Below, one piece after another: positions 17,473 to 42,582 of a DNA stretch of 64,000 nt (position 1 is the first letter of the stretch; every line of letters starts with the position of its first letter). The stretch is from Thiomicrorhabdus chilensis DSM 12352 (lineage in GTDB: Bacteria; Pseudomonadota; Gammaproteobacteria; Thiomicrospirales; Thiomicrospiraceae). The position numbers and the translations under genes are program-made. Location of the stretch: the NCBI RefSeq assembly GCF_000483485.1, contig NZ_KI519609.1, positions 748,072 through 812,071 on the forward strand, given 5' to 3'. The notes below the pieces were generated by a model. That model ran no database searches, had not been told where the DNA came from, and worked only from the letters and a program-made list of their open reading frames with translations.

Positions 17473-17480
17473 CAGGCCTG
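17473..17480. repeat. CAGGCCTG copy after glnE
   Basis: Intergenic, 19 bp after the glnE stop and 45 bp before the shared terminator. Confidence 0.85.
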
Positions 17481-19316: not shown

Positions 19317-21587
19317 ATGAACAGTCATGCACAGAAGGTGCTGGATAAAGCACTCAAAGGTCCGGTTTTCGAAAGACGTGTCAAACGTCGAAACGCCAAA
19401 GATTCAGCCGCCAAGTATGGAATCAGTTTTGGTGGTATCGGGGTGATTTTATCCGTGCTGCTGATTATGTTTTTTTTGCTTTATGTCGTGTTGCCATTGT
19501 TTGTGCCGGCGACGGTTGAAAAGCACTCTGAATTCGATCTGCCGGGGGGCAAAACAGAAACGTCTTTGTATTACGGAATGGATGAATATCAGGAAACCGC
19601 TTTGCGTTTCACTGAGTCCGGTCAATTGTTTGGTTTTGATGTCAGTAATGGCCAGCCGATATCAAAAGAGGTTCTACCTCTGGGTGAGGCACAAATCACA
19701 AGTTTTTCCGTAGTTTCTGAAATGAACAATGTATTGGCATTTGGCTTATCAAGTGGCGGGGTTCTCATTGCAAAATATGCATATGAAGTGAGTTATCCGA
19801 ACGATGTGCGCACCATTACTCCAAAGGTTCTATTTCCATTCGGTGAAGAGCCGATTAGCCTGGCCGAAACAAGCATTGAAAGATTGTCGGTCAAGCAGAA
19901 TGATTCGGACTTGGTTTTAGCCTATAAACTTCAGGGCAGTGAGCGCATTGCAATCAAACAATTCGGCATAGTGGAGTCCATGTTGTCCGATAGCCTTATT
20001 TTGGAAGAGGGCTATAGCAGCGAGTTTGAAAGCAATACGGCGGTTGATTGGCTGTTGTTGGACGGCAGCATGCGAAACCTCTATGTGATTTCCAAAAACG
20101 GTGTGACCGATTATTACGATTTGAGTGATCTGGAATCTCCTCGTTTGGTTCAGCATGTGGCTATGCTGAAAAATGAGGAACGTCTGACTACGGTTCGTTT
20201 CCTGTTGGGTGATTATTCATTGATGTTGGGAACCAACCAGGGAAATGTTCTGCAGTGGTTTCCGGTAAGGGACAGTGAAAATAACTTCTCTTTGCAACAC
20301 ATCCGAGATTTCAAAGTCGGTGATGCCGCCATTCAAACCATTGCGATTGAAAAAGCCCGTAAAGGTTTTGTGACCACGGATACTTCCGGTGAATTCAATC
20401 TTTACCACTCAACCGCCGAACGTCACTTAAATTCTACTCAGGTGACCGACGGAATGGCCGGATTCGTAACTATGGCCAACCGTGCAAATGGGGCTTTGGT
20501 GGAGACGGAAGACGGACGTTTGGTACATTATTTAATTGAAAACCATCACCCGGATGTGTCGGTTTCCAGTTTGTGGGGCAAGGTCTGGTATGAAGGCTAC
20601 TCCGAGCCGGATTATGTGTGGCAGTCTTCTTCCGCCAGTTCGGATTTTGAGCCTAAATTCTCAATGACTCCGTTAACCTTCGGAACCATCAAGGCCGCGA
20701 TGTATTCAATGCTGTTTGCTGTTCCGATCGCGGTGCTGGCGGCCATCTTTACTGCTTTCTTTATGGATAAAAAAACCCGTCAGTGGATTAAGCCCTCGGT
20801 TGAATTGATTGAGGCTTTGCCTACCGTTATTCTCGGGTTCTTGGCAGGCCTGTGGCTGGCTCCGTTTATGGAGTCTAATCTGCCGGGATTCTTCTCGTTG
20901 ATTATTATTATTCCATTTGGAATCGTTGCTTTTGGTTTGGCTTGGTCCAAGCTGCCGGAATCGATTCGTTTGATGTTGCCGGTTGGTCGACGAGCGGTAT
21001 TGATGATTCCAGTCGTGATCTTCTTGGGTTGGTTGTCCATGCAGTTGAGCGACCCGATTGAAAACGCCTTCTTCAATGGCGACATGCGCCACTGGTTGAC
21101 CTTTACCGCCGGAATCGATTTTGACCAGCGTAATGCGATGGTCATCGGGTTTGCAATGGGCTTTGCCTTGATTCCGACGATTTTCTCGGTGACGGAAGAC
21201 GCCATCTATAATGTACCAAGTTATTTGGTCAACGGTTCATTGGCACTGGGTGCCAGTGGTTGGCAGACACTAGTCGGTGTGGTTTTGCCAACCGCGAGTC
21301 CGGGTATTTTCTCCGCCATCATGCTCGGTTTCGGGCGCGGTGTCGGTGAGACGATGATTGTATTAATGGCATCGGGTAACACCCCATTAATGAACATGAA
21401 CTTGTTTGAGGGCATGCGCACGCTGTCGGCTAATCTGGCGGTTGAAATGCCCGAAGCGGCGGTGGACAGTTCACATTACCGTGTGTTGTTCCTGTCCGGA
21501 TTGGTACTCTTTATATTCACATTTATCTTTAACACCTTGGCAGAAGTTGTTCGTCAACGTATGCGCCGCAAATACGGGTCGCTTTAG
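19317..21587 (+). CDS. pstC: Phosphate ABC transporter permease PstC, long form
   Basis: At 756 residues this is more than twice the E. coli PstC. One helix near residues 40-62 is followed by about 370 periplasmic residues with a repeated beta pattern resembling a propeller (LFGFDVSNGQ, LAFGLSSGGVLIAKY, DLVLAYKLQGS, LLDGSMRNLYVISKNG, LMLGTNQGNVLQWF). The permease core lies in the C-terminal 300 residues, with EALPTVILGFLAGLWLAP and the EAA-type loop SLALGASGWQTLVGVVLPTASPG. Long PstC proteins occur in Vibrio and Pseudomonas relatives. Eleven bp separate it from pstA. One CAGGCCTG copy lies at 20845. Confidence 0.92.
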   Translation: MNSHAQKVLDKALKGPVFERRVKRRNAKDSAAKYGISFGGIGVILSVLLIMFFLLYVVLPLFVPATVEKHSEFDLPGGKTETSLYYGMDEYQETALRFTESGQLFGFDVSNGQPISKEVLPLGEAQITSFSVVSEMNNVLAFGLSSGGVLIAKYAYEVSYPNDVRTITPKVLFPFGEEPISLAETSIERLSVKQNDSDLVLAYKLQGSERIAIKQFGIVESMLSDSLILEEGYSSEFESNTAVDWLLLDGSMRNLYVISKNGVTDYYDLSDLESPRLVQHVAMLKNEERLTTVRFLLGDYSLMLGTNQGNVLQWFPVRDSENNFSLQHIRDFKVGDAAIQTIAIEKARKGFVTTDTSGEFNLYHSTAERHLNSTQVTDGMAGFVTMANRANGALVETEDGRLVHYLIENHHPDVSVSSLWGKVWYEGYSEPDYVWQSSSASSDFEPKFSMTPLTFGTIKAAMYSMLFAVPIAVLAAIFTAFFMDKKTRQWIKPSVELIEALPTVILGFLAGLWLAPFMESNLPGFFSLIIIIPFGIVAFGLAWSKLPESIRLMLPVGRRAVLMIPVVIFLGWLSMQLSDPIENAFFNGDMRHWLTFTAGIDFDQRNAMVIGFAMGFALIPTIFSVTEDAIYNVPSYLVNGSLALGASGWQTLVGVVLPTASPGIFSAIMLGFGRGVGETMIVLMASGNTPLMNMNLFEGMRTLSANLAVEMPEAAVDSSHYRVLFLSGLVLFIFTFIFNTLAEVVRQRMRRKYGSL

Positions 21588-21598
21588 GAGTTTATGGC

Positions 21599-23245
21599 AT
21601 GAAAGATTGGTTTAAAAAAGGCGAACATTGGATTTGGTTCAGCGCTTCGGCAGTGAGCATCAGCTTGGTGCTTGTTTTTGGTCTGTTGGCGATGATTTCC
21701 TACAAGGGTTTGATTCACTTCTGGCCGCATGAAGTCTATCACATCGAAATCCAGCACTCTGATGGCCAGAAAGAGGTTGTGGTCGGGGAGTTGCATGACT
21801 CTAAAATCAAAGAGGTGGAGGATGCTTCTGCACCCCACGGGAAAGTTGAGGTTCCGCAATACCTGATTAAAACGGGTAACCGTGATGTTTATGGCATCGA
21901 TTTCAGATGGATCAGCAGCGAAGATGTCATCGGCTCGATGGATACACTTGAAAAGGACGTATTTGTCATTGAGCGTTTTGAGTACGGTAATGTATACGGT
22001 TTTATTGATTCTGTCCGGGTCGATGGCCAGGTTTTTAATGATCCGCTTAAACGCGTCGAAGTTTTGAAAACCCAGGTGGAGAAAGGAACGGACTTAAACA
22101 GTGAGATTCGCCATATCGAAAAAGTTGAAATTGGTGCCATCAACTACAAGATCGAGGGGTTGCGTTTAGAAGAGAAGAAACTGCGTGCCAATGACGAGTT
22201 CACTGCCGAAGAGGAAGCGCGCCTGAATGCGGAACGTGCAGAACTGCAAAAAGCTTTTGAAGTCTACCAGGCCCAGGTGCAGATTCTTTATAAGGATTCC
22301 CGAGCTTTGGGCGAGGTGACTTTGAATATTGCGGGTAATCATCAGTTAGTGGTGCCAATCCGTAAAATCGTACATTTTTGGCAACCGAACAACATGAGCT
22401 TGGCAGAAGATATCGGCTTTTTCTTCAATGCAGTGGGTAACTTTTTGTTGGATGACCCTCGCGAAGCCAATACCGAAGGTGGGGTTTTCCCGGCTATTAT
22501 CGGTACGGTCACCATGGTGATGTTGATGGCGGTGTTTGTGACCCCGATGGGGGTCATTGCCGCAATCTACATGAGTGAGTATGCCAGAGAAGGTACGGTT
22601 TTGAGAATGGTGCGTATTTCCATCAATAACCTGGCCGGTGTCCCTTCGATTGTGTTCGGTATTTTCGGTTTAGGGTTTTTCGTCTATATCATGGGTTCGT
22701 CAATTGACGAGTTGTTTTACAGTTACGCTCTGCCGAGCCCGACTTTCGGTAGTCCTGGGTTATTGTGGGCGTCATTGACCATGGCGCTGTTGACTTTGCC
22801 GGTGGTCATCGTTTCCACCCAAGAAGGCTTGTCACGAATTCCACGTGCGCTTCGTGAAGGTGGGTTGGCATTAGGTGCAACCAAGTCCGAAACCATTATG
22901 CGTATCGTCCTGCCAATGACTATGCCGGCTATTATGACCGGTTTGATACTGGCGATTGCACGCGCGGCGGGTGAAGTTGCTCCTTTGATGTTGGTAGGGG
23001 TCGTTAAGTTGGCTCCGGAGTTGCCTTTGGATATGATTTCTCCATTTGTGCATTTAGACCGTAAGTTTATGCACCTTGGTTTCCATATCTACGATGTCGG
23101 TTTCCAAAGTCCAAACGTTGAAGCCTCCCAGCCCTTGGTGTACGCCACCTCGTTGTTGCTGGTCCTGATTATTCTTAGTTTGAATTTTGGGGCGATTATG
23201 ATTCGAAACAGACTGCGTGAAAAATACAAGTCTTTAGATAATTAA
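21599..23245 (+). CDS. pstA: Phosphate ABC transporter permease PstA, long form
   Basis: A 548-residue partner of PstC. A first helix (residues about 15-36) is followed by a roughly 250-residue periplasmic insert that includes a charged coiled-coil segment (about 190-230, IEGLRLEEKKLRANDEFTAEE...). The permease core follows, with NLAGVPSIVFGIFGLGFFV and the EAA loop EGGLALGATKSETIMRIVLPMTMP. The enlarged periplasmic parts of both permeases probably fold together, an inference from their shared enlargement. Confidence 0.92.
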   Translation: MKDWFKKGEHWIWFSASAVSISLVLVFGLLAMISYKGLIHFWPHEVYHIEIQHSDGQKEVVVGELHDSKIKEVEDASAPHGKVEVPQYLIKTGNRDVYGIDFRWISSEDVIGSMDTLEKDVFVIERFEYGNVYGFIDSVRVDGQVFNDPLKRVEVLKTQVEKGTDLNSEIRHIEKVEIGAINYKIEGLRLEEKKLRANDEFTAEEEARLNAERAELQKAFEVYQAQVQILYKDSRALGEVTLNIAGNHQLVVPIRKIVHFWQPNNMSLAEDIGFFFNAVGNFLLDDPREANTEGGVFPAIIGTVTMVMLMAVFVTPMGVIAAIYMSEYAREGTVLRMVRISINNLAGVPSIVFGIFGLGFFVYIMGSSIDELFYSYALPSPTFGSPGLLWASLTMALLTLPVVIVSTQEGLSRIPRALREGGLALGATKSETIMRIVLPMTMPAIMTGLILAIARAAGEVAPLMLVGVVKLAPELPLDMISPFVHLDRKFMHLGFHIYDVGFQSPNVEASQPLVYATSLLLVLIILSLNFGAIMIRNRLREKYKSLDN

Positions 23246-23324
23246 CTTTTAATCAATTGAAATTATAATTTTTAAAATAACTTGGTTTTCCAGCGTTGAA
23301 TCGGGTTAAAAAGGATGAGTAAAC

Positions 23325-24143
23325 ATGAGTGAGAAAAATATAAGCGTTGCTTTGGATCGCGATCATCGCAGTCTTTCATTGCAAGATGAAAAGGTGGCAA
23401 TGGAAGTCAAGGATTGGAACCTTTATTACGGATCAAAGCAAGCCTTGAAAGAGGTCAATATGATTGTCCCGGAACATCGGGTCACGGCATTTATCGGGCC
23501 TTCCGGTTGCGGTAAGTCAACCTTGTTGCGCTGTTTCAACCGCATGAATGACTTGATCGATATTGTCAGCGTAGAAGGTGAAATGACGTTGCATGGTGAT
23601 GACATTTATGCTCGAGAGATGAATGTGGCTTCTTTGCGTCGTCGTGTTGGTATGGTGTTCCAAAAGCCGAACCCTTTTCCGAAAACCATCTATGAGAATG
23701 TCGCATACGGTTTGCGTTTACAGGGAATCAACGATAAAAGCGTATTGGATGAGACCGTTGAATGGGCGCTTAAAGGAGCCGGCCTGTGGGATGAAGCGAA
23801 AGATCGTTTGAATGAAAACGCATTGGGCATGTCAGGTGGGCAGCAGCAACGTTTGTGTATTGCGCGTGCGATTGCCATAAAACCGGAAGTCTTGTTGTTG
23901 GATGAACCGACCTCTGCTTTGGATCCGATCTCAACTTTGGCGATTGAAGAGTTGATTTTCGAGTTGAAGAAAGACTTTACCATTATGATTGTTACGCATA
24001 ATATGCAGCAAGCTGCGCGTGTTTCCGATTATACTGCCTTTATGTATATGGGTGAATTGATTGAATATACGGATACGGACAGTTTGTTTACCAATCCGAG
24101 CCAGAAGCGCACGGAAGACTACATAACAGGGCGTTACGGTTAA
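23325..24143 (+). CDS. pstB: Phosphate ABC transporter ATPase PstB
   Basis: A 272-residue ATPase with Walker [11 protein letters not shown]-loop [19 protein letters not shown], signature MSGGQQQRL, Walker [13 protein letters not shown] and switch histidine in MIVTHNM. The VFQKPNPFP motif is diagnostic of PstB. An N-terminal extension of about 25 residues precedes the ABC core. It lies 79 bp after pstA and before phoU. Confidence 0.96.
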
Positions 24144-24194
24144 GTTAATTCCGCATAAGGATGATGACTGAATCGTACAGTAGAGGATAAAATC

Positions 24195-24923
24195 ATGGAA
24201 AGAACAGAATTTAAAAGCCATATTTCCGAGCAGCTAAACCGTAATTTGGAAGATTTATTCAACCAGGTTTTAGAAATGGGTGGCTTGGTTGAACGTCAAC
24301 TTGAAGATGCGGTCAAGGCCGTACAAAGCGGTGACGTGAATTTGGCGAAAGAGGTGCTGCAACTTGATAAGGTGATCAATAAGGAAGAGATGGAAATCGA
24401 TCGCTTGTGTGCCCGTGTATTGGCGCGACAGCAACCGACGGCTTCCGATTTGCGTCTGATCATTATCGCGATTCGCATTGCGGTGGATTTGGAGCGCATG
24501 GGCGACGAAGTGGTCAAGGCGGCGAAATTGGTTATTAAAATGGCCGACTACGATATTAACTGTTTGGATCTTCCTGGCTATACTAGTCTGATTGAAATCA
24601 CCACCTGTGCCAACACCATGTTGAAAACGGTACTCAACGCCTTTGCACGTTTGGATTTATCCGACTTGATGAGTGTCATTGAAGACGAAGAGCGAATGGA
24701 TGATTCTTTGAGTGCCGCTACGGACGAAGTGCTGGCCGGATTTAAGGAAAGCCATTTTGCGCCGGAATGTTTATTGGAAATGGTCTACTCCCTGCGAGCC
24801 AGTGAACGTGTCACCGATCATGCCGCCAATATTGCCGAAAGCATTATCTATCTGGTCGAAGGGCGTGACGTGCGTAATATCGACCCGGAAAGGCTGTCTG
24901 AGTTCTTATCAAACTTGGATTGA
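24195..24923 (+). CDS. phoU: Phosphate signalling protein PhoU
   Basis: A 242-residue all-helical protein with two PhoU repeats, each carrying an acidic metal-binding motif (ERMGDEVVKAAKL near residue 98 and ERVTDHAANIAESI near 201). PhoU links the Pst transporter to PhoR so that the kinase is silent when phosphate is ample. Placed between pstB and phoB. Confidence 0.95.
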   Translation: MERTEFKSHISEQLNRNLEDLFNQVLEMGGLVERQLEDAVKAVQSGDVNLAKEVLQLDKVINKEEMEIDRLCARVLARQQPTASDLRLIIIAIRIAVDLERMGDEVVKAAKLVIKMADYDINCLDLPGYTSLIEITTCANTMLKTVLNAFARLDLSDLMSVIEDEERMDDSLSAATDEVLAGFKESHFAPECLLEMVYSLRASERVTDHAANIAESIIYLVEGRDVRNIDPERLSEFLSNLD

Positions 24924-24958
24924 TTGCAGATTTCGCAAAAAAGTGGATTTAAAAGGTT

Positions 24959-25657
24959 ATGACAAAACAGACAATTCTGGTCATTGAAGACGAAGCCGCG
25001 ATCCGCGACATGCTCAAGTTTACCTTGACCTCGGCTGAATATGATGTGCTTGAAGCACCGAACGCCGAACAGGGTTGGCAGGTTGCCAATGACAAAAATC
25101 CCGATTTGATTCTGTTGGATTGGATGTTGCCCGGTGTCAGCGGCGTGGCCTTAGCGCAACGCATTCGCCAGAATGAAAAGACCCGTACGATTCCCATTGT
25201 GATGCTCACAGCCAAAAGCGAAGAGGATGATCAGGTCCAAGGCTTTGAAGCCGGAGCGGATGATTATGTGGTCAAACCCTTCTCTCCGCGTGCCTTGGTT
25301 GCCCGAGTCAAGGCTTTGCTCCGTCGCCAGGACGTGGATTCTATGCAGGATGACAAGGTCAGTGCCGGCAAGATGCAGCTTGACCTGAGCAGTCACCGTT
25401 TCTCGGTTGATAATGCCGAGGTCAAGCTAGGACCGACCGAATTCAAACTGATTCAGTTTTTCATGTCACATCCAAACCGTGTCTATTCCAGAATGCAGTT
25501 ATTGGATCATGTCTGGGGTGAAAATGTTGTGGTGGAAGAGCGCACCGTGGACGTTCATATCAGACGTTTACGCAAACTTCTGGAACCGGTAGGGGTGGCT
25601 GACTATATCCAGACCATTCGTGGTTCGGGTTACCGTTTTTCGGTGGTTGAGGAGTAA
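24959..25657 (+). CDS. phoB: Phosphate regulon response regulator PhoB
   Basis: A 232-residue OmpR/PhoB regulator. The receiver domain has acidic residues at IEDEAA, phospho-acceptor D in LLDWMLPG, T in LTAK and K in VVKPFSP. The winged-helix domain (LGPTEFKLIQFFMSHPNRVYSR ... RTVDVHIRRLRKLLEP ... TIRGSGYRF) should bind the Pho boxes found upstream of pstC and pstS. Confidence 0.95.
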   Translation: MTKQTILVIEDEAAIRDMLKFTLTSAEYDVLEAPNAEQGWQVANDKNPDLILLDWMLPGVSGVALAQRIRQNEKTRTIPIVMLTAKSEEDDQVQGFEAGADDYVVKPFSPRALVARVKALLRRQDVDSMQDDKVSAGKMQLDLSSHRFSVDNAEVKLGPTEFKLIQFFMSHPNRVYSRMQLLDHVWGENVVVEERTVDVHIRRLRKLLEPVGVADYIQTIRGSGYRFSVVEE

Positions 25658-25659
25658 TC

Positions 25660-26958
25660 TTGCTGTCCAGTGGAGTCTCCAGAGAACTGACCTGGATTGT
25701 CGCCACCTTGTGGGGACTGTTGTTTTTCTGCTGGTTAACCGGATGGTGGATCGAAGGGTTTATCGCTTATCTGCTGATTTATATGGGCCGTCAGCTTTGG
25801 AGCATGCGCAAATTCGAAAAGTGGATTGAGGGCGGCACCACCAGTGCTTTTCCTCCGGCTTCGGGTTTTTGGAGTGAGCTGACTTATCTGGTTTCCCGTA
25901 AACAGCGGGCTTTGGAAAAACACGCCGATTTGCAGCTGTATAAATCGGAACAATTCAAATCCGCATCCATGCTCATTCCCGATGCCATTGTCTCTTTGGA
26001 CCATGAGAACCACATTGAGTGGTTCAATGCTTCTTCCCGAAAGATTTTAGAGTTGCGCAGTCAGGATGTCGGTCGAAAAATCGAAGGACTCATTCGCCAG
26101 CCTGAATTCATTCACTATCTCAAAGAATCCCAGTATCAGAATGTTTTAAGGATTCACTCTCTGCAGGGGGTGCAGCGTACCTTCAGCGTTAAAATCATCC
26201 CCTATTTTGACAGCCACAAGCTGTTAATAGTCAAAGACATCACCGATCTTTACAATCTGGCTCAGATTCGCCGCGATTTTATTGCCAATGCATCCCACGA
26301 GTTGCGCACCCCCTTGACCGTCTTAAAAGGGTATCTCGAGGCCATGATCGATACGCCGGGCCCGCACCACGATATGTGGCTGCCCGCCCTGCAAAACATG
26401 GAAAACCAGTCGGACCGCATGCAGGCGATAATTGAAGATCTGCTGACTTTGTCAAAGATGGAATCGCAGACCATCACCTCCAAAGCCAATAAGGTCGATG
26501 TTCCGCGTATGCTGGCGAATTTGAAAACTGAAGCTCAGCAGTTCAGTCAGGGCAAACACCAATTTGTTTTCGAAGTGGATGAGTCATTGACCATTCAAGG
26601 CTATGCCGAGCCCCTGAAAAGTGTGTTTATGAACCTGGTGACCAATGCGGTGCGCTATACACCGGATGGCGGGATTATCAAGGTACGTTGGTATGAGGAT
26701 ACCGAGGGCGTGCATTTTGAGGTGGAAGACAACGGCATCGGCATCTCCAAAGAGCATATTCCGCGTCTCACGGAACGTTTTTACCGAGTCGATACCGCCC
26801 GGTCACGTGTCACCGGAGGAACCGGGTTGGGATTGGCAATCGTCAAACATGTACTCGAAAGGCACGGTGCAACCCTTCATGTAGACAGTCTGATCGGCAG
26901 AGGGTCCACCTTCCGGTGTGATTTCCCGACAGCGATGCCTCCTGCCCAGTCAGATTGA
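25660..26958 (+). CDS. phoR: Phosphate regulon sensor kinase PhoR
   Basis: A 432-residue kinase with a membrane hairpin near residues 10-45, a linker, a PAS domain (about 95-200, SMLIPDAIVSLDHENHIEWFNASSRKIL), the dimerisation box NASHELRTPLTVLKG with the phosphorylated histidine, and an ATPase domain with N box NAVRYTPDGG and GTGLGLAIVKH. The start is TTG at 25660, two bases after the phoB stop; GAGGAG at about 6 bp upstream supports it. No large periplasmic domain, as usual for PhoR. Confidence 0.93.
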   Translation: MLSSGVSRELTWIVATLWGLLFFCWLTGWWIEGFIAYLLIYMGRQLWSMRKFEKWIEGGTTSAFPPASGFWSELTYLVSRKQRALEKHADLQLYKSEQFKSASMLIPDAIVSLDHENHIEWFNASSRKILELRSQDVGRKIEGLIRQPEFIHYLKESQYQNVLRIHSLQGVQRTFSVKIIPYFDSHKLLIVKDITDLYNLAQIRRDFIANASHELRTPLTVLKGYLEAMIDTPGPHHDMWLPALQNMENQSDRMQAIIEDLLTLSKMESQTITSKANKVDVPRMLANLKTEAQQFSQGKHQFVFEVDESLTIQGYAEPLKSVFMNLVTNAVRYTPDGGIIKVRWYEDTEGVHFEVEDNGIGISKEHIPRLTERFYRVDTARSRVTGGTGLGLAIVKHVLERHGATLHVDSLIGRGSTFRCDFPTAMPPAQSD

Positions 26959-27088
26959 AGTCTGAGTTTTAATCAAAGCAAAATCAGTCTTGATTGAGTT
27001 GGGCTTTATGGGGGCGTTTCAAGTGATGTTAGGGCGCTTTTCCTGTTCGTTGATATTTCTGCTGACGTTCATACATAACCTTTCCCAG

Positions 27089-27135
27089 AAACAAACAGGC
27101 CTGTCCAAATTGAATTCAGACAGGCCTGTTTGTTT
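27089..27135. terminator. Bidirectional terminator built from two inverted CAGGCCTG copies
   Basis: AAACAAACAGGCCTGTC (27089-27105) and GACAGGCCTGTTTGTTT (27119-27135) are perfect 17-bp inverted repeats around a 13-base loop, flanked by A- and T-rich ends. It lies between the convergent phoR and pit genes. CAGGCCTG copies are at 27096 and 27121. Confidence 0.85.
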
Positions 27136-27159
27136 TTGTCGTTTTGAGAAAGTGGCCGG

Positions 27160-28731
27160 TTAAGGCATCATCATACCGCGAATGGCAAAATAGATGATTG
27201 CCGCCAAAAGAGCCGAGGCGGGAACCGTGATTACCCAAGCGGCGACAATCTTCAGAAAGGCCGAACGTTTGACCAACTCTTTCTGGTAAACCTTATTCAA
27301 AGATTTTCGTTCCTTTTTGGAGAGTGCCACTTCCGCATCTTTCTGTTTAAGCTGCGCCAGCATTATTTTCTTGTCGGCCAATGAGGCTTTTTCAAATTTT
27401 TGGATGAACAGGTCAATTTCAGCTTGGTCCTGACCTTGATGGTGGTCGCGAATCTCCTGGATGGTTTTAGCGTAGCTGCGTTTCAGATACTCTCTTAAAA
27501 AGCCCACGCCAAAGATGCCGCCCACGGCGATATGTGTGGAGCTGACGGGTAATCCAAGCTGTGAGGCGATGATGACGGTGATGGCGGCCGCCATGGCAAC
27601 CGAATAGGCACGCATCTGATCCAGCTCAGTGATTTCGCTGCCGACAGTGCGAATCAGTTTAGGGCCGAACAACAACAGACCCAAACTGATACCGATGGCA
27701 CCAATGAGCATTACCCAAAGCGGAATTTCCGCTTTGGTGGAAACACCATGCGTTTGGATGGCGTCATTAATCGCGGCCAAGGGGCCGACAGCGTTGGCGA
27801 CGTCATTTGCACCGTGGGCGAAACTCAACAAGGCGGCAGCAAAAATCAACGGAATGGTGAATAGGGTGTTGACGCTGTGTTTGTGGTTTTCCAGATTGTC
27901 CGCCTGGCGGGCGATCAAGGGTTTGACCAGAAGGTAGATGGCGCTGGCAAAGGCCAGTCCGACCAGTACGGCAGTTATAAAGTCGACTTTCCAGACTTTT
28001 TTCAGCCCTTTCATGATCAAGTAAGTCGAAAACGCCCATGCCATGATGGCGATCAGCAGTGGCAGCATTTTTTTGGAGGAGGCGATCATGTCGTCTTTAT
28101 AGGTGATGCTGCGTTTGATCCAAAACAGGAAAAGTGCGGCGATGGTCCCGCCGATGACCGGAGAGATGATCCAGCTTGCGGCAATGGCACCCATTTTGTC
28201 CCAGTTGGCGATGCTCCAGCCTGCGGCGGCAATGCCGGCACCCAAAACCCCGCCGACAATCGAATGGGTAGTTGACACCGGAGCGCCCAGCGCCGTTGCC
28301 AGGTTAAGCCAAAGAGCGCCAGCCAGCAGAGCTGCGATCATCAACCAGATAAAGGTGTCGCTGTCGCCGATCAGAGCCGGATCGATAATGCCTTTTTTGA
28401 TGGTGCTGACGACATCGCCACCGGCAATCAGCGCGCCCGATGACTCAAATATGGCCGCAAGGATAATCGCGCCGGTCAGGGTCAGGGCTTTTGAACCCAC
28501 CGCCGGGCCGACGTTGTTGGCCACGTCGTTCGCCCCGATGTTAATCGCCATATAGCCACCGATCATGGCGGCGATCACCAACTCGACACTGACCACCCCG
28601 GTACCCATTTGCAGGTTGGCGGTAAAAAGCATGATGAGGATGATGAAGAGCAGGGCGGTGCCGAATCGGAACATCTCCTTACGGCTTCTTTGGGTGGCGT
28701 TTTCTATATCGTTTATATTGCGGAATTCCAT
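27160..28731 (-). CDS. pit: Inorganic phosphate transporter, Pit family
   Basis: A low-affinity phosphate permease of about 523 residues with the duplicated PiT signature: GANDVANNVGPAVGSKALT in the N-terminal half and HGANDVANAVGPLAAIND in the C-terminal half, plus GAPVSTTHSIVGG and GLPVSSTHIAVGG. A charged cytoplasmic region of about 90 residues follows residue 415. The start is set at 28731 (MEFRNINDIEN); 25 more codons are open upstream but run toward the pstS control region. It faces phoR, so high- and low-affinity uptake sit side by side. Confidence 0.9.
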   Translation of the reverse strand: MEFRNINDIENATQRSRKEMFRFGTALLFIILIMLFTANLQMGTGVVSVELVIAAMIGGYMAINIGANDVANNVGPAVGSKALTLTGAIILAAIFESSGALIAGGDVVSTIKKGIIDPALIGDSDTFIWLMIAALLAGALWLNLATALGAPVSTTHSIVGGVLGAGIAAAGWSIANWDKMGAIAASWIISPVIGGTIAALFLFWIKRSITYKDDMIASSKKMLPLLIAIMAWAFSTYLIMKGLKKVWKVDFITAVLVGLAFASAIYLLVKPLIARQADNLENHKHSVNTLFTIPLIFAAALLSFAHGANDVANAVGPLAAINDAIQTHGVSTKAEIPLWVMLIGAIGISLGLLLFGPKLIRTVGSEITELDQMRAYSVAMAAAITVIIASQLGLPVSSTHIAVGGIFGVGFLREYLKRSYAKTIQEIRDHHQGQDQAEIDLFIQKFEKASLADKKIMLAQLKQKDAEVALSKKERKSLNKVYQKELVKRSAFLKIVAAWVITVPASALLAAIIYFAIRGMMMP

Positions 28732-28842
28732 AACTGAATCTCTGCTGTTTGATTGTCGCGGGCATTGTATATAATCTGCAGGCCAATATTCATCAAATTT
28801 AGCCATAATTTTAAGTGCATATAGTATGCGTTTTTATCCCGG

Positions 28843-28898
28843 CTGTCATGAATATGTCATATTTCCTTAAAAATACTGTTATGGTGGCTCCCTATAAT
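28843..28898 (+). promoter_or_regulatory. Double Pho box and promoter of pstS
   Basis: CTGTCATGAAT and ATGTCATATTT (28843-28864) form a near-consensus Pho box. A second box in the same 11-bp phase, with CTGTTATGGTG at 28876-28886, is followed by TATAAT at 28893-28898. PhoB bound to the second box would replace the -35 element. Confidence 0.8.
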
Positions 28899-28947
28899 TT
28901 GCCCCGTTGAACGAAATTTATTTTTGTATTTATTGGAGACTTATCTC

Positions 28948-29913
28948 ATGATCAAACGTCAAATGCTTTTAGCGTTGGGGCTTGCCTCAGCTGTTGCTTC
29001 TCAAACTGCTTATGCCGCTGTGGATGCTGACCTTCCTACTTACCAGAAGGTTTCTGGTGTTTCTGGTAACCTGAACTCAGTTGGTTCTGATACCTTGGCT
29101 AACCTAATGACTTTGTGGGCTGAAGAGTTCAAGCGTAACTATCCTAACGTGAACATTCAGATCCAGGCAGCGGGTTCTTCTACTGCACCTCCAGCTTTGA
29201 CTGAAGGGACGTCAAACGTCGGTCCTATGAGCCGTAAAATGAAGTCAAAAGAAGAAGTTGGTTTTGAAAAGAAATGGGGTTACAAGCCTACTCCGGTTGC
29301 AGTTGCAATCGATGCGCTAGCGGTTTACGTGAACAAGGACAACCCAATCAAAGGTTTGAGCATTCCTCAGGTTGATGCGATCTTCTCTTCAACTCGTAAG
29401 TGTGGTGCTAAAGCAGACATCAGCACTTGGGGTCAAGCGGGTGTTGAAGGTTCTTTAGCCGATAAGTCTATCCAGATTTATGGTCGTAACTCGGTTTCTG
29501 GTACTTACGGTTACTACAAGAAAAAAGCACTTTGTAAAGGTGACTACAAGTCTTCTGTGAATGAGCAGCCTGGTTCTGCTTCTGTGGTACAGTCTGTATC
29601 TGCTTCTATGAACGCAATCGGTTACTCTGGTATCGGTTACAAGACAGCGGGTGTTAAAGCGGTTCCTCTAACTAAGAAAGAAGGCGGTAAATTTGTTGAA
29701 GCGACCAACGAAAACGCTTTGAACGGTACTTACCCTCTATCTCGTCTACTTTACGTTTACGTAAACAAAGCACCTAACAAAGCGGTTGAGCCGGTTGTAG
29801 GTGAATTCTTCAAGCTTGTTTTGTCTAAGTCTGGTCAGCAAGTTGTTGAGAAAGACGGATATATCCCACTACCAGCTAAGGTAGCGGCTAAAGAGCTTGC
29901 AAAACTTCAGTAA
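28948..29913 (+). CDS. pstS: Phosphate-binding periplasmic protein PstS
   Basis: A 321-residue precursor with a signal peptide cleaved after ASQTAYA. Phosphate-contact motifs include [30 protein letters not shown] and [21 protein letters not shown]. The start at 28948 follows a TGGAGAC site; an ATG eight codons upstream is less well placed. Codon choice is visibly more biased than in neighbours (for example repeated TCT, GGT, CGT), fitting high expression under phosphate limitation. It is separated from pstCAB by about 5 kb. Confidence 0.94.
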
Positions 29914-29936
29914 GATTTGAGTTTGCTCTGATATGA

Positions 29937-29964
29937 AAAGCCCCGCACTGCGGGGCTTTTTTTT
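29937..29964 (+). terminator. Terminator after pstS
   Basis: AAAAGCCCCGC-ACT-GCGGGGCTTTT with a run of eight T residues. Confidence 0.93.
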
Positions 29965-29991
29965 GGCCTGATTTTAAGCTAATAAAATGAG

Positions 29992-29999
29992 CAGGCCTG
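29992..29999. repeat. CAGGCCTG copy between pstS and ferredoxin
   Basis: Within TGAGCAGGCCTGCCTG, between the pstS terminator and the 3' end of the ferredoxin gene. Confidence 0.85.
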
Positions 30000-30021
30000 C
30001 CTGTTTTGGCGGGAGTTGAAT

Positions 30022-30273
30022 TCAGATCAGCTCGATTTCCACATCGGTCAGCGGAATCACGCTACAGGTCAGGATTTCCCCGGCAGCGGCTTCATACGCC
30101 GGACTTTGAATCTCTTCGACTTCTCCGGAAATCAAACGTACCGCACAAGCGCCACAGTTCCCGCCGCGACAGCTGTAAGGCATGTCAAACCCGTTTTCAT
30201 CCAAAGCTTCAAGCATTGAAAATTGCCCGTCAAATTCGCATTCACCTTGTCCAACTACATTGATTTTCGCCAT
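30022..30273 (-). CDS. Plant-type 2Fe-2S ferredoxin
   Basis: An 83-residue soluble electron carrier with the cluster motif CRGGNCGAC (C35, C40, C43) and the fourth ligand C70 in ILTCSVIP. This is the short [2Fe-2S] fold without extra domains. Its redox partner is not visible in the neighbourhood: pstS and an ion channel flank it. A monocistronic gene with stop near the pstS terminator. Confidence 0.88.
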   Translation of the reverse strand: MAKINVVGQGECEFDGQFSMLEALDENGFDMPYSCRGGNCGACAVRLISGEVEEIQSPAYEAAAGEILTCSVIPLTDVEIELI

Positions 30274-30361
30274 TGTGTACCCCTAAGTTTGATTATTCAA
30301 AAAATTATTTTATCAATTTTATTTATAGCCCATTCGAGTAGAATATACAAAAAATTTATCA

Positions 30362-31225
30362 ATGGTTAATAAGAGTTTATATGAAATGATGACTTGGCTT
30401 GATTTTCAACAAAAATTTCAGGTAATTCGTGACAATAAAGCTTTTGAGATGTTTGTGATTACCGTGATCATCTTCTCGTCGTTGATGATCGGCATCCGCA
30501 CTTATAATTTGCATCCCTTCGCCGAAAGCGCTTTGGTGTTTTTGGATTATGCGGTGACGCTGTTCTTTTTGATTGAGATTATTATCCGTATGGCGGCCGA
30601 GCCGAGAGTACGGGATTTCTTCAAAAAAGGTTGGAATATTTTTGATTTTGTAATCGTCGTCGTCAGTTTGATTCCATTGGATGATTCCGAATACGCCCTG
30701 ATTGCACGTATGTTGCGTCTGTTCCGTGTCATGCGTTTGATCTCATTTATTCCAGAATTGCGAGTGTTGGTCAGTGCGTTAATTTCCGCTATGCCGCGAA
30801 TGGGGTATGTGGCACTGCTGATGTTTATTATCTTTTACCTTTATGCGGTCATCGGAAACCTGATGTTTTCGCAGATTAATCCGCAGTTGTGGGGTGATTT
30901 GGGCTTGGCGTTGCTGACGCTTTTCCGAGTGGCCACTTTTGAAGACTGGACGGACGTCATGTATGAAACCATGACGGTCTATGGTCTCAGTTGGATTTAT
31001 TACATCACCTTTATTTTCTTCTCCGCCTTTGTGTTCCTGAATATGATGATCGGGATCGTGGTGGAAGTGCTGGATGAAGAGCACAAGAAAATGGAAGCTG
31101 AAAATCTGTCTGAAGAGTTGGCGGAAGAGCAGTCCGCTCAAGCCAGTTATGAAAGTCGCATCGAATCTGAAATTGCCGATTTGCATGCTAAGTTAGATCT
31201 GCTGATTGCTCAAAAACAGAAATAG
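30362..31225 (+). CDS. Voltage-gated cation channel, one-domain (NaChBac-like)
   Basis: A 287-residue six-helix channel subunit that should form a tetramer. S4 (about residues 114-130) carries R116, R119, R122 and R125 at three-residue spacing; the pore loop holds the filter T192-F-E-D-W-T-D198; S6 is followed by an acidic segment and a C-terminal coiled coil (about 225-285). NaChBac and NavAb have TLESW filters; this one has acidic residues at three positions, like engineered CavAb (TLDDWSD) and eukaryotic calcium-channel repeats, which suggests calcium permeability (inference). The ATG at 30362 has no strong ribosome site; internal ATGs at 30380-30392 are alternatives. Confidence 0.9.
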   Translation: MVNKSLYEMMTWLDFQQKFQVIRDNKAFEMFVITVIIFSSLMIGIRTYNLHPFAESALVFLDYAVTLFFLIEIIIRMAAEPRVRDFFKKGWNIFDFVIVVVSLIPLDDSEYALIARMLRLFRVMRLISFIPELRVLVSALISAMPRMGYVALLMFIIFYLYAVIGNLMFSQINPQLWGDLGLALLTLFRVATFEDWTDVMYETMTVYGLSWIYYITFIFFSAFVFLNMMIGIVVEVLDEEHKKMEAENLSEELAEEQSAQASYESRIESEIADLHAKLDLLIAQKQK

Positions 31226-31244
31226 CTTATAGGTTCTGAGTTCA

Positions 31245-31252
31245 CAGGCCTG
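31245..31252. repeat. CAGGCCTG copy after the channel gene
   Basis: Intergenic, 20 bp after the channel stop, in TTCACAGGCCTGGTGAA, itself an imperfect palindrome. Confidence 0.85.
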
Positions 31253-31264
31253 GTGAAATCAAAC

Positions 31265-31296
31265 AAAAAAGCCCGCTGGAGAACACTCTGCGGGCT
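31265..31296 (-). terminator. Terminator of the lipoprotein gene
   Basis: On the minus strand GCCCGC and GCGGGC pair around a 14-base loop and are followed by TTTTTTGTTT. On the plus strand there is no T-run, so it mainly serves the minus gene. Confidence 0.75.
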
Positions 31297-31370
31297 AAGT
31301 TAATTGATTCAACTTTAAGGAAAAGATCCCTATTTAATTGAAGCTAGGGCCACTTTCCATTAGGCGTTCA

Positions 31371-32570
31371 TTATCGCTCTTGTTGGTTGTTTTCAATAAA
31401 GGCTTCAATCTCAGCGCGATAAGGGTCACACTCTTCCGTTGCCAGAATTTCTTCAGCCGCAAAAGAGTAATCGGTTGAGGTATCGCCTAATCCAAAGAAG
31501 TCATTACTTACGGCATTCGCATGCGCTTTGGTTGCTTCGAAAGAACAGGCATTGTCTGAATCCTTATGCACTTCTACGATACGCTCATCATTGATTGTCA
31601 CGCTGACCTCATAGTTGTGGTTCGATGCAAAATAGGCTTCCATCAGGAAGAGTTTATCCCATGCTCGTGGCGTTGCCCCTTGGTGGGTCTTTGAAGCCAT
31701 AAAGTCGATATGGCGTTTCATATTGGTGGCCTGTTCATCCGTGTTGGCTTGAATGAACCAGGTGACTTTGTAGTTTTCTTCATCAAAAATCGGTGCAGGA
31801 TGTTCACTGCTTTCTGGATGATAATATTCGGCATGGTTTTCTGTCACATAAGGGATGTACGACCCGTCTTGGTTTTCGACGTTTCCACTTTCTGAGCGAT
31901 AGCCGTCTTGCCAGTTTTCTACGCTTTCTGCAAAATGGCTTTCCGCCTCTTCTGTTGAGACATCCAGTTCGCCATCGGCGTCACTGTCAATTTTGCTGGT
32001 TAAGGTGTTGTCATACGCAAGTAAGTCGGTTTCTGATAACGGTGTTTCCTGCAGATTTAACGGTACCGCTTGATCTAATTTTGCACGCACTGTCTCGCTG
32101 ATTTTAATTCCGTTGGCTGGGTTTTTATCTTCATCCATGGATTGCATTAGGCGCAACATTAATCGAGATGGTGCGCTTAATCCTCTCTCCAGAGTGACTT
32201 GGCGCAGTTCTGAAGAAGTGTAAGAATCCTCTTCTGTTAAATCCACTGGTGTTACCAAACCGTCTTCACCTACTGAGGTAGAGCCTAAAACAAGTTGACC
32301 GATACGAAATTCCACGCGGTCTCCTGATTGATAGTTGAATTGACCGTGTTCATTGGTCACGCCGCTTTCACCTGATGAGGTTTGGTATTCAACACCTTCC
32401 ACGGCCGCATCAATAAAAGACCCCGTTAGTACGGTCGATTCACTTGCCTCGTTTACCTCGCTTGACGCATTGTCAGTGCTTTCTGTGCTGGATCCACCGC
32501 AGCCTGATAATAAAAGAGCTGACATTAATACTGATAGCGGAAGGGTTTTATTGTTATTAAATTTTTTCAT
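31371..32570 (-). CDS. Acidic lipoprotein with calcium-binding-like loops
   Basis: A 399-residue lipoprotein with lipobox LLSGC (acylated C24) and a serine/glutamate-rich spacer. Residues about 48-97 form a small beta domain (GSFIDAAVEGVEYQTSSGES ... FRIGQLVLGS) seen in many outer-membrane lipoproteins. Two loops resemble EF-hand sites: DEDKNPANGIKISE near 146 and DSDADGELDVSTEE at 195-208, the latter with D195, D197, D199 and G200. The remainder is unrecognised. It faces the channel gene. No enzymatic function can be assigned. Confidence 0.7.
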   Translation of the reverse strand: MKKFNNNKTLPLSVLMSALLLSGCGGSSTESTDNASSEVNEASESTVLTGSFIDAAVEGVEYQTSSGESGVTNEHGQFNYQSGDRVEFRIGQLVLGSTSVGEDGLVTPVDLTEEDSYTSSELRQVTLERGLSAPSRLMLRLMQSMDEDKNPANGIKISETVRAKLDQAVPLNLQETPLSETDLLAYDNTLTSKIDSDADGELDVSTEEAESHFAESVENWQDGYRSESGNVENQDGSYIPYVTENHAEYYHPESSEHPAPIFDEENYKVTWFIQANTDEQATNMKRHIDFMASKTHQGATPRAWDKLFLMEAYFASNHNYEVSVTINDERIVEVHKDSDNACSFEATKAHANAVSNDFFGLGDTSTDYSFAAEEILATEECDPYRAEIEAFIENNQQER

Positions 32571-32754
32571 TTTTTTATCCTGCTTTTCACTTAATGGTAA
32601 TTTTTTCCATTTGGTCCGGGTGCAGTTTAAGGCTAAAAATACAAACTGTCAAAATTTTTATAAAATTAATTTTATGCAGGGCTAATTTATTTTATGGCTG
32701 GGTTTAAACGTCATTAATCAGCAGCCTTTGTGGGGTGGCTAGTTACGAAATGAA

Positions 32755-32762
32755 CAGGCCTG
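32755..32762. repeat. CAGGCCTG copy in the lipoprotein/ect spacer
   Basis: Within TGAACAGGCCTGATTTC; intergenic. Confidence 0.85.
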
Positions 32763-33084
32763 ATTTCTTTTTTCAGTGTTTTCCGCTTGAAAAGTCGGCC
32801 AGTAAACAAGTGGAGGTTCAGATTCATAAAGAGGTGCGCCGCTGCAAAAACATGAATCCTTAATCCCTTTGCGTAATCTGAACAGTAATCAAGATGAATC
32901 GCGCGATTCCATGGCGTGCCCCCATGGTCGGAGATCGGTGATTGTGAAATAGTTAAATCGAAACAGACATTTCAAGCCTCGACTAGGTAAAGCTCTCAAG
33001 CAGGCTTAAAAAAGATGGTGTGTCTGGGAATTGGCAGTAAAAACCCGGTTTAAAAGTCTTTAAAAAACGTTAATAATTTCATTG

Positions 33085-33102
33085 GGTTAAGGTGGCTTAA
33101 CC
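33085..33102. promoter_or_regulatory. Perfect inverted repeat, possible operator of the ect operon
   Basis: GGTTAAG-GTGG-CTTAACC lies 22 bp upstream of the putative -35 box. Its size suits a dimeric regulator, but no regulator gene (for example ectR) is adjacent. Confidence 0.35.
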
Positions 33103-33123
33103 AAACCTTAATAAACCAAGTCC

Positions 33124-33151
33124 TTGATTTTTGTAATTATTTTGGTTATAC
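33124..33151 (+). promoter_or_regulatory. Sigma70-like promoter of ectABC-ask
   Basis: TTGATT (33124-33129) and TTATAC (33146-33151) with a 16-bp spacer. If used, the message has an untranslated leader of about 285 nt before ectA. Confidence 0.45.
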
Positions 33152-33443
33152 TTCTTCGCAATATTAATAACCCCAAAGGTTAGTTTTATCTTTTTTTCAG
33201 TTGTATTTAATACACTGTCATTTGCGTTTAGGCGCTGTTTTCTTTCAGACCAACGTCGGTCGAGTCTAATCCAAAGGACCAGTCCTGAGGAATCAATCGT
33301 ATGGCATAAAATTGAGCGCCTTGCTCAAGGCTGCTTCGCTGTTTTGCGTTTTGCCATCACTTCTGTTGTGTCCCGAGTGATACACACTCTTTCGCGGTTG
33401 CGATTGGTCGAACTTTTCATCTTTAAACAAAATAGGCAAATAC

Positions 33444-33983
33444 ATGGAATCTGATATGAATGATTCGAAGGATTCACTTATCTTCCGCAAACCGTCATTA
33501 GAAGATGGGCTGGCGATTTACGAGTTGATTAAAAACTCGCCGCCACTGGATGTGAACTCCTCTTACCTCTATTTTTTACAGGCCTCCCATTTTGCGGATA
33601 CCTGCATTGTGGTTGAGAGCCAGCAAAAGATTGTCGGGTTTGTGTCCGCTTATTACCGACCTGATCAGCCAGATTCCTTGTTTGTTTGGCAGGTTGCGGT
33701 GGACGAGTCGATGCGAGGCGTCGGGCTGGCGAAAAGAATGTTAATGGCTTTGGTTGAAAACCAGAAGGGCCACGCAACGCTAAAAGAGCTGTGTTGCACC
33801 ATTAGCCCGTCCAACAAAGCCTCGCAAGGGTTGTTTAAATCCTTTAGCAAACAATATGGACTGAGCTTAACGGTTGCCCCTTTTATTACGGAGGCTCATT
33901 TTGGCGAACAAGCGCATGAAGCGGAAGAGCTGTACGTATTAAAATCAGATAAACAAGAAAACTTAACTAATTTAATCTTTTAA
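33444..33983 (+). CDS. ectA: L-2,4-diaminobutyrate acetyltransferase EctA
   Basis: EctA acetylates diaminobutyrate at N-gamma with acetyl-CoA in ectoine synthesis. The 179-residue GNAT protein has the acetyl-CoA motif VDESMRGVGLAKRMLMALV and EctA-typical FRKPSLEDGLAIYELIKNSPPLDVNSSYLYFLQASHF. The start at 33444 lacks a good ribosome site; ATG 33456 is an alternative. It is 11 bp before ectB. Confidence 0.94.
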   Translation: MESDMNDSKDSLIFRKPSLEDGLAIYELIKNSPPLDVNSSYLYFLQASHFADTCIVVESQQKIVGFVSAYYRPDQPDSLFVWQVAVDESMRGVGLAKRMLMALVENQKGHATLKELCCTISPSNKASQGLFKSFSKQYGLSLTVAPFITEAHFGEQAHEAEELYVLKSDKQENLTNLIF

Positions 33984-33994
33984 GGAAAATAAAG

Positions 33995-35254
33995 ATGGCA
34001 TTACAAACATTTAATAAATATGAATCCGAAGTTCGTGGTTATATCCGATCTTTCCCGGTGATTTTCGAAAGAGCCAAGATGGCTGAAATCTGGGATGAAA
34101 GCGGAAAGCGTTATATTGACTTTTTCGCGGGTGCGGGTGCCTTGAACTACGGCCACAACAACCCGGACATTAATGCGGCTCTAATCGAATACCTGCAGCA
34201 TGACGGAATTGGTCACGCTTTGGATATGGGAACGGTTGCGAAGAAAGAGTTTATTGAGAACTTCGTTCACAACATTCTTGAACCTAGAGATTTGGAATAC
34301 AAATTGCAGTTTGTGGGACCGACAGGTACCAATGCGATTGAAACCGCTTTGAAAATTGCCCGTAAGGTGAAAGGGCGTAAACAGGTGATGTCCTTCACTA
34401 ACGGCTTCCACGGGATGTCCATGGGGTCGCTGAGTATCACCGGTAACAGCTATTATCATGATGAAAGTTATGGTGTTCCTGGTTATACCACCCAGGTGCC
34501 TTTCCATAAATACCTTGGGGACAAGGTCGATACCATTGCCTATCTTCGTAAGATTTTGGAAGATGCCTCAAGTGGAACGGAATTGCCAGCAGCGATCGTC
34601 TTGGAGACCATCCAGGCAGAAGGTGGGATTAACGTTTCCGGCGAACAGTGGTTGAGAGACTTGCGTCAAATCTGTGATGACTTTGATATTTTGATGATCG
34701 CCGATGAGATTCAGGTCGGTAACGGACGTTCATCAGACTTCTTCAGTTTTGAAAGAGCGGGCATCCAGCCTGACATCATCACCTTGTCGAAATCGATCGG
34801 TGCGGGTCAGCCGATGGCGATGGTGCTGTTGAAACCTGAATTGGACCAATGGAGCCCGGGTGAGCACTCAGGTACTTTCCGTGGAAACAACTTGGCGTTT
34901 GTTTCTTCAAGTGTTGCTTTGAAAAAGTACTGGTCGGATGACAGCTTTTCTAAAGAAGTGAAGCAGAAATCTAATCTGGTGCAGGCAAGAATGGAGAAGC
35001 TGGCATTACGTTTCCCGCAATATGTTCGTGAAATTCGTGGTCACGGTATGATTTGGGGTGCGGAATTTAAAGATCCGGACATGACCTCTAAAGTGTGTGC
35101 TCAAGCCTTTGAAGATGGTTTGGTGATTGAAACAGCCGGTGCCGGCGGTGAAGTGATTAAATTCTTGGGGCCATTGGTGATTACCGAAGAATTAATCAAC
35201 GAAGGTTTTGATATTTTGGAAGGCGCGGTCGAGAAAGTCGGTAAAAAGCAATAA
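33995..35254 (+). CDS. ectB: Diaminobutyrate-2-oxoglutarate transaminase EctB
   Basis: EctB converts aspartate semialdehyde to diaminobutyrate using glutamate, the first ectoine-specific step. The 419-residue class III PLP aminotransferase shows FFAGAGALNYGHNN, VGPTGTNAIETALKIARK, the PLP aspartate in MIADEIQVGNGR and the Schiff-base lysine in ITLSKSIGAGQPMA. AAGGAAAAT lies before the ATG. Part of ectABC-ask. Confidence 0.96.
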   Translation: MALQTFNKYESEVRGYIRSFPVIFERAKMAEIWDESGKRYIDFFAGAGALNYGHNNPDINAALIEYLQHDGIGHALDMGTVAKKEFIENFVHNILEPRDLEYKLQFVGPTGTNAIETALKIARKVKGRKQVMSFTNGFHGMSMGSLSITGNSYYHDESYGVPGYTTQVPFHKYLGDKVDTIAYLRKILEDASSGTELPAAIVLETIQAEGGINVSGEQWLRDLRQICDDFDILMIADEIQVGNGRSSDFFSFERAGIQPDIITLSKSIGAGQPMAMVLLKPELDQWSPGEHSGTFRGNNLAFVSSSVALKKYWSDDSFSKEVKQKSNLVQARMEKLALRFPQYVREIRGHGMIWGAEFKDPDMTSKVCAQAFEDGLVIETAGAGGEVIKFLGPLVITEELINEGFDILEGAVEKVGKKQ

Positions 35255-35734: not shown

Positions 35735-35742
35735 CAGGCCTG
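35735..35742. repeat. CAGGCCTG copy between ectC and ask
   Basis: Within CAGCAGACCTGGTGACAGG... where CAGCAG and CTGCTG pair; intergenic inside the ectoine operon, which here has a 133-bp gap. Confidence 0.8.
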
Positions 35743-42574: not shown

Positions 42575-42582
42575 CAGGCCTG
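42575..42582. repeat. CAGGCCTG copy between surA and pdxA
   Basis: Within CGGCAGGCCTGGTGC in the 138-bp surA-pdxA gap. Confidence 0.85.

Follow-up and report, generated by a model that had tools for sequence, protein, structure and literature searches.

A probable bidirectional terminator between phoR and pit built from two copies of a candidate uptake-type repeat in Thiomicrorhabdus chilensis

The hairpin between phoR and pit

The window, a stretch of 64,000 nucleotides from the genome of Thiomicrorhabdus chilensis DSM 12352, carries phoR and a pit-type phosphate transporter gene pointing toward each other across a short spacer, which is occupied by a hairpin (Table 1). The two arms of the hairpin are exact reverse complements over 17 bp, each contains one copy of the octamer CAGGCCTG, and both outer sides are T-rich. 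As RNA, the element folds with an energy of -32.7 kcal/mol on the forward strand and -34.1 kcal/mol on the reverse strand (z-scores -7.81 and -7.52), and none of 200 shuffles was equally stable. A GC-rich stem-loop followed by a T tract 3′ of a stop codon, the signature of an intrinsic terminator, is thus present. A simple terminator scan limited to loops of 3-8 nt returned no entry for this hairpin, whose loop measures 13 nt, and an Rfam search of positions 20000-34000 gave no match. Judged by sequence and fold, two copies of a genomic repeat very probably form a two-way (bidirectional) intrinsic terminator here.

The initial annotation had placed here a perfect 17-bp stem with A/T tails between convergent phoR and pit genes. 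Its coordinates and stem agree exactly with the sequence, T-rich DNA does lie outside both arms, and the gene identities and strands are backed by Pfam. Its description of the two copies as inverted holds in a narrower sense. CAGGCCTG is its own reverse complement, so every pair of copies is direct and inverted at once, and the information sits in the flanks; for the core the statement is trivial, and it gains content from the flanks, which extend the stem at this site.

Relatives of pit put the window close to Thiomicrorhabdus and Hydrogenovibrio. Among 15 relatives, no close pair of repeats was found in the 300 nt downstream of pit; six have one CAGGCCTG there, and at least seven have an unrelated hairpin with a T tail, as judged by eye. 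In seven of nine aligned relatives phoR follows pit, and in the other two the aligned DNA ends early. Since other species have an ordinary hairpin downstream of pit, the repeat pair probably fills the same terminator slot, which it seems to have taken over.

Table 1. Features of the window, with positions counted from its first nucleotide
Feature	Position	Strand	Basis
phoR, phosphate sensor kinase, points toward hairpin	25660-26958	+	Pfam PhoR PF11808, HisKA PF00512, HATPase_c PF02518
T-rich tail TTTGTTTCTGGG, would serve pit-side transcripts, overlaps left arm in part	27084-27095	-	sequence
Stem left arm, 17 nt, with CAGGCCTG copy 1 at 27096-27103	27089-27105	+	sequence, fold
Loop, 13 nt	27106-27118		sequence, fold
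Stem right arm, 17 nt, with CAGGCCTG copy 2 at 27121-27128	27119-27135	+	sequence, fold
T-rich tail TTTGTTTTTGT, would serve phoR-side transcripts, overlaps right arm in part	27129-27139	+	sequence
pit-type phosphate transporter gene, points toward hairpin	27160-28806	-	Pfam PHO4 PF01384, E 3e-109
YaaA-domain gene beside second pair	52093-52869	+	Pfam
Second close pair, CAGGCCTG at 52942 and 52967, gap 17	52942-52974		convergent genes
HSP33-domain gene beside second pair	53025-53885	-	Pfam
Single CAGGCCTG copy	5242-5249		motif count
Single CAGGCCTG copy	6258-6265		motif count
Single CAGGCCTG copy	7944-7951		motif count
Single CAGGCCTG copy	11838-11845		motif count
Single CAGGCCTG copy	14540-14547		motif count
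Single CAGGCCTG copy	17473-17480		motif count
Single CAGGCCTG copy	18107-18114		motif count
Single CAGGCCTG copy	20845-20852		motif count
Single CAGGCCTG copy, in spacer	29992-29999		motif count, alignment
Single CAGGCCTG copy	31245-31252		motif count
Single CAGGCCTG copy	32755-32762		motif count
Single CAGGCCTG copy	35735-35742		motif count
Single CAGGCCTG copy	39486-39493		motif count
Single CAGGCCTG copy	42575-42582		motif count
Single CAGGCCTG copy	46271-46278		motif count
Single CAGGCCTG copy	46607-46614		motif count
Single CAGGCCTG copy	47948-47955		motif count
Single CAGGCCTG copy	48042-48049		motif count
Single CAGGCCTG copy	48493-48500		motif count
Single CAGGCCTG copy	55102-55109		motif count
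Single CAGGCCTG copy	56803-56810		motif count
Single CAGGCCTG copy	59043-59050		motif count
Single CAGGCCTG copy	59861-59868		motif count

An abundant palindromic repeat

The window contains 27 copies of the octamer, whereas its shuffled versions average 0.95 and none of 100 holds more than four. The 2.443-Mb genome contains 900 copies, compared with 26 of a letter-reversed control palindrome. The genome thus holds one short motif in the hundreds to thousands of copies that mark an uptake sequence, at a density of 0.37 per kb. Copies are spaced slightly more regularly than random placement would give (sd/mean 0.76; variance/mean 0.78 in stretches of 20 kb). The second close pair of the window has the same architecture as the phoR/pit hairpin. 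The spacer copy at 29992-29999 is matched by a copy at the corresponding alignment position in four of the nine relatives aligned (L001, L002, L005 and L010), with differing flanks.

For a closer view, 28 stretches covering all 34 close pairs of the genome and the window were sampled (611,068 bases, 253 copies), with the 1,037-base second contig (L109) left out. Alignment of the sampled copies reveals a symmetric motif of about 24 bp, roughly AAAWYNRV-CAGGCCTG-BYNRWTTT, in which flanks close to BYNRWTTT run outward from both sides of the core and the AT part lies about one helical turn from the centre. Half of the sampled copies (128 of 253) fall outside ORFs, which were called by length alone, without a trained gene finder. 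Since a sample picked around pairs inflates the paired and intergenic share, single copies were counted apart: the roughly 539 kb of ORFs hold 118 and the remaining 72 kb or so hold 67, or 0.22 versus 0.93 per kb. Within the window, whose coding share is 90%, ORFs contain 15 of the 27 copies. Single copies display no left-right complementarity beyond the null, and single sites were rejected as hairpins.

Of the 125 ORF-embedded copies of the sample, 49 read Gln-Ala-Cys (25), Gln-Ala-Trp (23) or Gln-Ala-stop (1). The repeat often specifies rare residues and so may shape protein sequence.

Distribution and dialects in the family

Within the family, 32 of 62 genomes carry 236-1173 copies of CAGGCCTG and the other 30 carry 0-74; 27 of the 62 have only 0-67 copies and no dialect was found in them. 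Outside the family (365 of the 369 sampled genomes of the class), no genome exceeds 338 copies, a maximum reached in 4.1 Mb, and most sampled Gammaproteobacteria have more copies of CAGGCCTG than of its reversed control. Presence of the repeat follows clades, with at least seven changes on a quick tree of one gene, comEC, from 40 of the 62 genomes, on which G026 has a long branch and an unsure place. Long end branches are seen in some motif-free or dialect-switched genomes (G026 1.43, G029 1.17, G024 1.15, G016 1.13), which on this single-gene tree may hint at a relaxation of competence genes.

Three genomes use a changed motif. In 260 kb of G026, CCGGCCGG occurs 117 times, against one CAGGCCTG, one CAGGCCGG and no CCGGCCTG, and the whole genome has 1251 CMGGCCKG (reversed control 38) versus 12 CAGGCCTG. 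In G023 the dialect is the non-palindromic CAGGCCGG, with 120 occurrences on both strands of 260 kb against five CAGGCCTG and 13 CCGGCCGG, and its AT arm is found on the CAGG side only; genome-wide there are 1275 CMGGCCKG (reversed control 189) versus 74 CAGGCCTG. G036, with 745 CMGGCCKG (control 107) versus 62 CAGGCCTG, uses the same dialect as G023, which is also seen in its 14 listed wider pairs. GGCC is constant across CAGGCCTG, CCGGCCGG and CAGGCCGG, so that subclade dialects with a conserved inner core, a further mark of uptake sequences, are found. Intergenic density is about four times the coding density in all three motif types, being 1.46 versus 0.32 per kb in G023 and 1.41 versus 0.33 per kb in G026, in stretches chosen regardless of copies.

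Among the top k-mers shown for the remaining motif-poor genomes, none was prominent as a dispersed motif, some of these samples spanning only 1-10 kb. The strongest signals in the motif-free G007, G008 and G051 are locally dense repeats, with 18 to 96 copies of a 12-mer, that look like CRISPR arrays. The 20-kb samples of two further motif-free genomes, G043 and G045 (L126 and L128), contain many C/G runs of eight or more, possibly phase-variation tracts or an assembly feature.

Close pairs at gene ends

Thirty-four pairs of CAGGCCTG are separated by 4-34 bp in the T. chilensis genome, versus 11 by 35-65 bp (binomial p 0.0008). A lack of excess inverted pairs elsewhere had been named in the initial annotation as the outcome that would speak against its reading, and the opposite was observed. 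Twenty of the close pairs have a convergent and ten a tandem gene context, three are in predicted ORFs, one is at a stretch edge, and none is divergent. The first inner flank base is complementary in 27 of the 34 (cross-pair null 32%) and the first outer one in 22 (null 37%), with most positions further out above the null by a smaller margin. The mean fold of the pairs is -26.5 kcal/mol, versus -20.7 kcal/mol for chimeras of different pairs. The 9 nt outside contain 5.0 T beside pairs, 3.5 beside single copies (p 4e-10) and 2.3 in the genome background, meaning that the tails of pairs are T-richer than the motif's own arms.

Close pairs also outnumber wider ones in the three dialect relatives, by 85 to 22 in G023, 49 to 8 in G026 and 47 to 14 in G036. 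Only the flanks and the asymmetric dialect give weight to the inversion of pairs. Among the 50 close pairs listed of the 85 in G023, 45 are inverted (two of them with one copy in common), one is direct and four are not orientable, while the 22 pairs at 35-65 bp comprise ten inverted, seven direct and five not orientable; inversion thus distinguishes close from wider pairs (45/46 versus 10/17 orientable, the close ones being among those listed; Fisher p 0.0002). The AT side points outward, as a terminator needs, in 36 of the 45 inverted pairs listed and in the reverse direction in nine. Successive copies of this genome more than 65 bp apart are of mixed orientation, 57 same versus 43 different. 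At the sequence level, therefore, inverted close pairs with the features of Rho-independent terminators lie at gene ends, as in known uptake-sequence systems.

Strictness of the consensus and a copy-free island

The sample of the T. chilensis genome contains 253 exact cores and 281 singly mismatched ones, counting all 24 possible variants. The corresponding figures are 150/155 in pooled samples of 20 relatives, 117/31 in G026 and 120/427 in the GC-rich G023. Perfect copies are reported to outnumber singly mismatched ones for both USS and DUS (Redfield 2006), and the excess here is weaker than those published, including that of the Pasteurellaceae USS, so that strictness of the consensus is seen in part only. 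A high background of any 8-mer may partly explain the near-equal counts. With flank weights trained each time on the half of the exact copies not being scored, 128 of 253 held-out exact copies passed the flank threshold, versus 6-7 of 281 singly mismatched cores. This small number indicates that there is hardly any halo of decayed copies.

The longest copy-free stretch of the sample spans 15.5 kb and runs to the end of its sampled stretch (L098 4500-20000; G000:C1 about 1617500-1633000). It resembles a genomic island: its GC drops to 35%, and its products include a phage-type tyrosine integrase, an AAA protein of 1544 aa and a GGDEF protein. Of 120 blocks of 5 kb, only the three in this stretch are below 42% GC, and they hold no copies. 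Copy density rises with GC (Spearman 0.32, p 0.0004); given densities of 0.27-0.34 per kb in the GC classes next to it, zero copies in 15 kb would occur by chance in 0.6-1.7% of cases, so composition explains the missing copies in part at most. Alongside its intergenic enrichment, the repeat is thus absent from apparently acquired DNA, as expected of an uptake sequence, in the one island examined and with a possible contribution from low GC.

Comparison with known uptake sequences

Uptake sequences are DNA "passwords" with which bacteria of a few families identify DNA from their own kind. The DUS of the Neisseriaceae is read by the minor pilin ComP. The initial annotation had drawn a parallel between the pair and such repeats. 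This parallel extends to abundance, fixed-core dialects, intergenic preference, inverted pairs at gene ends and the copy-free island, and to strict consensus only in part. Subclade dialects with a fixed inner core are described as marks of DUS and USS (Helsem 2025; Frye 2013). As reported for the Neisseriaceae DUS, the repeat has hundreds to thousands of copies, an intergenic preference and inverted terminator-like pairs (Frye 2013, Treangen 2008, Helsem 2025); its dialects retain an inner core, GGCC in place of the CTG of DUS, and the same family includes some motif-free genomes, as in the accounts of DUS. It differs from DUS in its sequence, in its palindromic core, in having AT arms on both sides, in its lower density and in being gammaproteobacterial.

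The Pasteurellaceae USS is described as a short GC-containing core with an AT-rich flanking segment that ends in T about one helical turn away (Redfield 2006), an arrangement shared by the repeat, as are subclade dialects and inverted terminator-like pairs in a preferred configuration (Redfield 2006, Kingsford 2007). The cores are unrelated (GCGG in USS), and the USS is asymmetric, with its AT segments on one side, whereas the repeat is symmetric in its main dialect and one-sided in the CAGGCCGG dialect only. Its core is palindromic, unlike known DUS and USS as described by Bakkali 2007, and its density is about a third of the one copy per kb given for both (Redfield 2006). The Neisseria DUS 10-mer and 12-mer and two Pasteurellaceae USS cores have no matches in the window. 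CCTGTCTGAA, whose end is the same as that of DUS, occurs there once, inside the hairpin on the reverse strand, and is taken as a coincidence. In the literature searched, with subscription papers and preprints outside the scope, CAGGCCTG is not mentioned as a whole word and the substring matches listed are unrelated by title; no paper joins Thiomicrospira with "DNA uptake sequence", and none among the matches listed concerns uptake sequences in the group.

Competence machinery is represented by ComEC, which is over the cut-off in 52 of the 62 family genomes, that of T. chilensis included, and which does not separate motif-bearing from motif-free genomes among the 62. In G023 it is in two pieces about 37 kb apart (G023:C1:88072-89325, L204, and 50689-51309), and the draft G036 (about 520 contigs) has no clear match. 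Both CAGGCCGG genomes therefore have a split or no clear ComEC, and those lineages may have lost competence. FimT/GspH (PF12019) was considered as a receptor and rejected, since its matches are confined to three of the 62 genomes, all motif-free, and T. chilensis has none.

Alternative explanations

The possibility that the octamer is common merely through codon usage and that the pair is accidental would agree with its excess over the reversed control in most sampled Gammaproteobacteria, yet it is refuted by the counts (27 versus 0.95 in the window, 900 versus 26 in the genome) and is at odds with the 27 family genomes that hold only 0-67 copies and no dialect; its probability is negligible. 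Repeats existing only as terminators, whether as a spreading terminator or as a REP-like hairpin family, would account for the excess and good folds of close pairs. The 34 close pairs make up only 68 of the 900 copies, however, 118 of 185 single sample copies are inside predicted ORFs, and the lack of left-right complementarity beyond the null in single copies does not suit a hairpin family either. This explanation is very unlikely.

Two other readings are improbable to the same degree. One would make the repeat a HIP1-type highly iterated palindrome, kept by a methylase together with mismatch repair, with close pairs becoming terminators by happenstance. As with cyanobacterial HIP1 and its alternates, a single palindromic octamer dominates in most motif-bearing genomes and related palindromes are found in some relatives (Elhai 2015, PMC4390886); in one of them CCGGCCGG replaces CAGGCCTG, as alternate HIPs are reported to replace HIP1 (PMC4390886). 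Unlike HIP1, the repeat has longer AT flanks, pairs at gene ends and one dialect that is not palindromic, since CAGGCCGG, in contrast to CAGGCCTG and CCGGCCGG, lacks the symmetry and bears its AT arm on one side only. A cytosine-5 methylase was rejected as the driver for want of association with the motif: PF00145 has no match in T. chilensis, in the three dialect genomes or in 21 of the 32 genomes with the standard motif, and it does match in 13 of 27 motif-free ones. The CCGGCCGG core is without adenine, which excludes N6-adenine marking of that core. The other reading would have the roughly 900 sites bound by an abundant nucleoid-type protein that organises or segregates the chromosome. A symmetric 24-bp motif with fairly even spacing would suit a dimer; the asymmetric dialect (120 CAGGCCGG versus 5 CAGGCCTG and 13 CCGGCCGG) is ill-suited to a homodimer, and the scarcity of decayed copies departs from the relaxed consensus described as usual for regulatory sites (Redfield 2006). 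The intergenic bias, the pairing at gene ends and the patchy loss between sister clades also argue against such a protein.

Proposed origin of the terminator and implications

A bidirectional terminator formed by two copies of an uptake-type repeat is the best explanation of the locus and a rather probable one. The probability that the repeat itself is an uptake-type signal like DUS and USS, as far as its sequence tells, is very nearly as good. Each copy brings a GC core and an AT arm, and because every copy has both, two copies near each other make a GC stem that is followed by a T tail whichever strand is read. Between phoR and pit, such a hairpin would stop the transcripts of both genes. 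The repeat is most likely present for another reason, acting like DUS or USS: the type IV pilus/competence machinery would have a surface receptor with a preference for motif-bearing DNA, so that self DNA is taken up, recombination would favour motif-bearing alleles, and the motif would accumulate in permissive places, with close pairs then being kept as terminators. The hairpin, the abundance, consensus and dialects of the repeat, and the excess, orientation and gene context of its pairs are read from the sequence; termination in vivo, the receptor and biased uptake are inferred.

In a broader reading, which is favoured with somewhat more reserve, the repeat would represent a third, independently evolved family of uptake sequences, located in the Thiomicrorhabdus/Hydrogenovibrio group of the Gammaproteobacteria, and the first whose core is palindromic and orientation-free and is flanked by AT arms on both sides. 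As parts of this same joint reading, a symmetric motif would have given way to a one-sided, oriented one among its dialects, and close pairs would act as terminators with each of the three motif types seen.

By kinship, the host group consists of free-living sulfur oxidisers. If the proposal is true, a third origin would mean that uptake "languages" are not peculiar to host-associated bacteria. The many sister species that have the motif, a changed dialect or none would open a comparative search for the receptor, and the same species would allow a test in the debate between selection and molecular drive. The way in which an oriented uptake signal can come about would be illustrated by the palindromic core together with the one-sided dialect, and the terminator would add another instance in which this secondary use has evolved anew.
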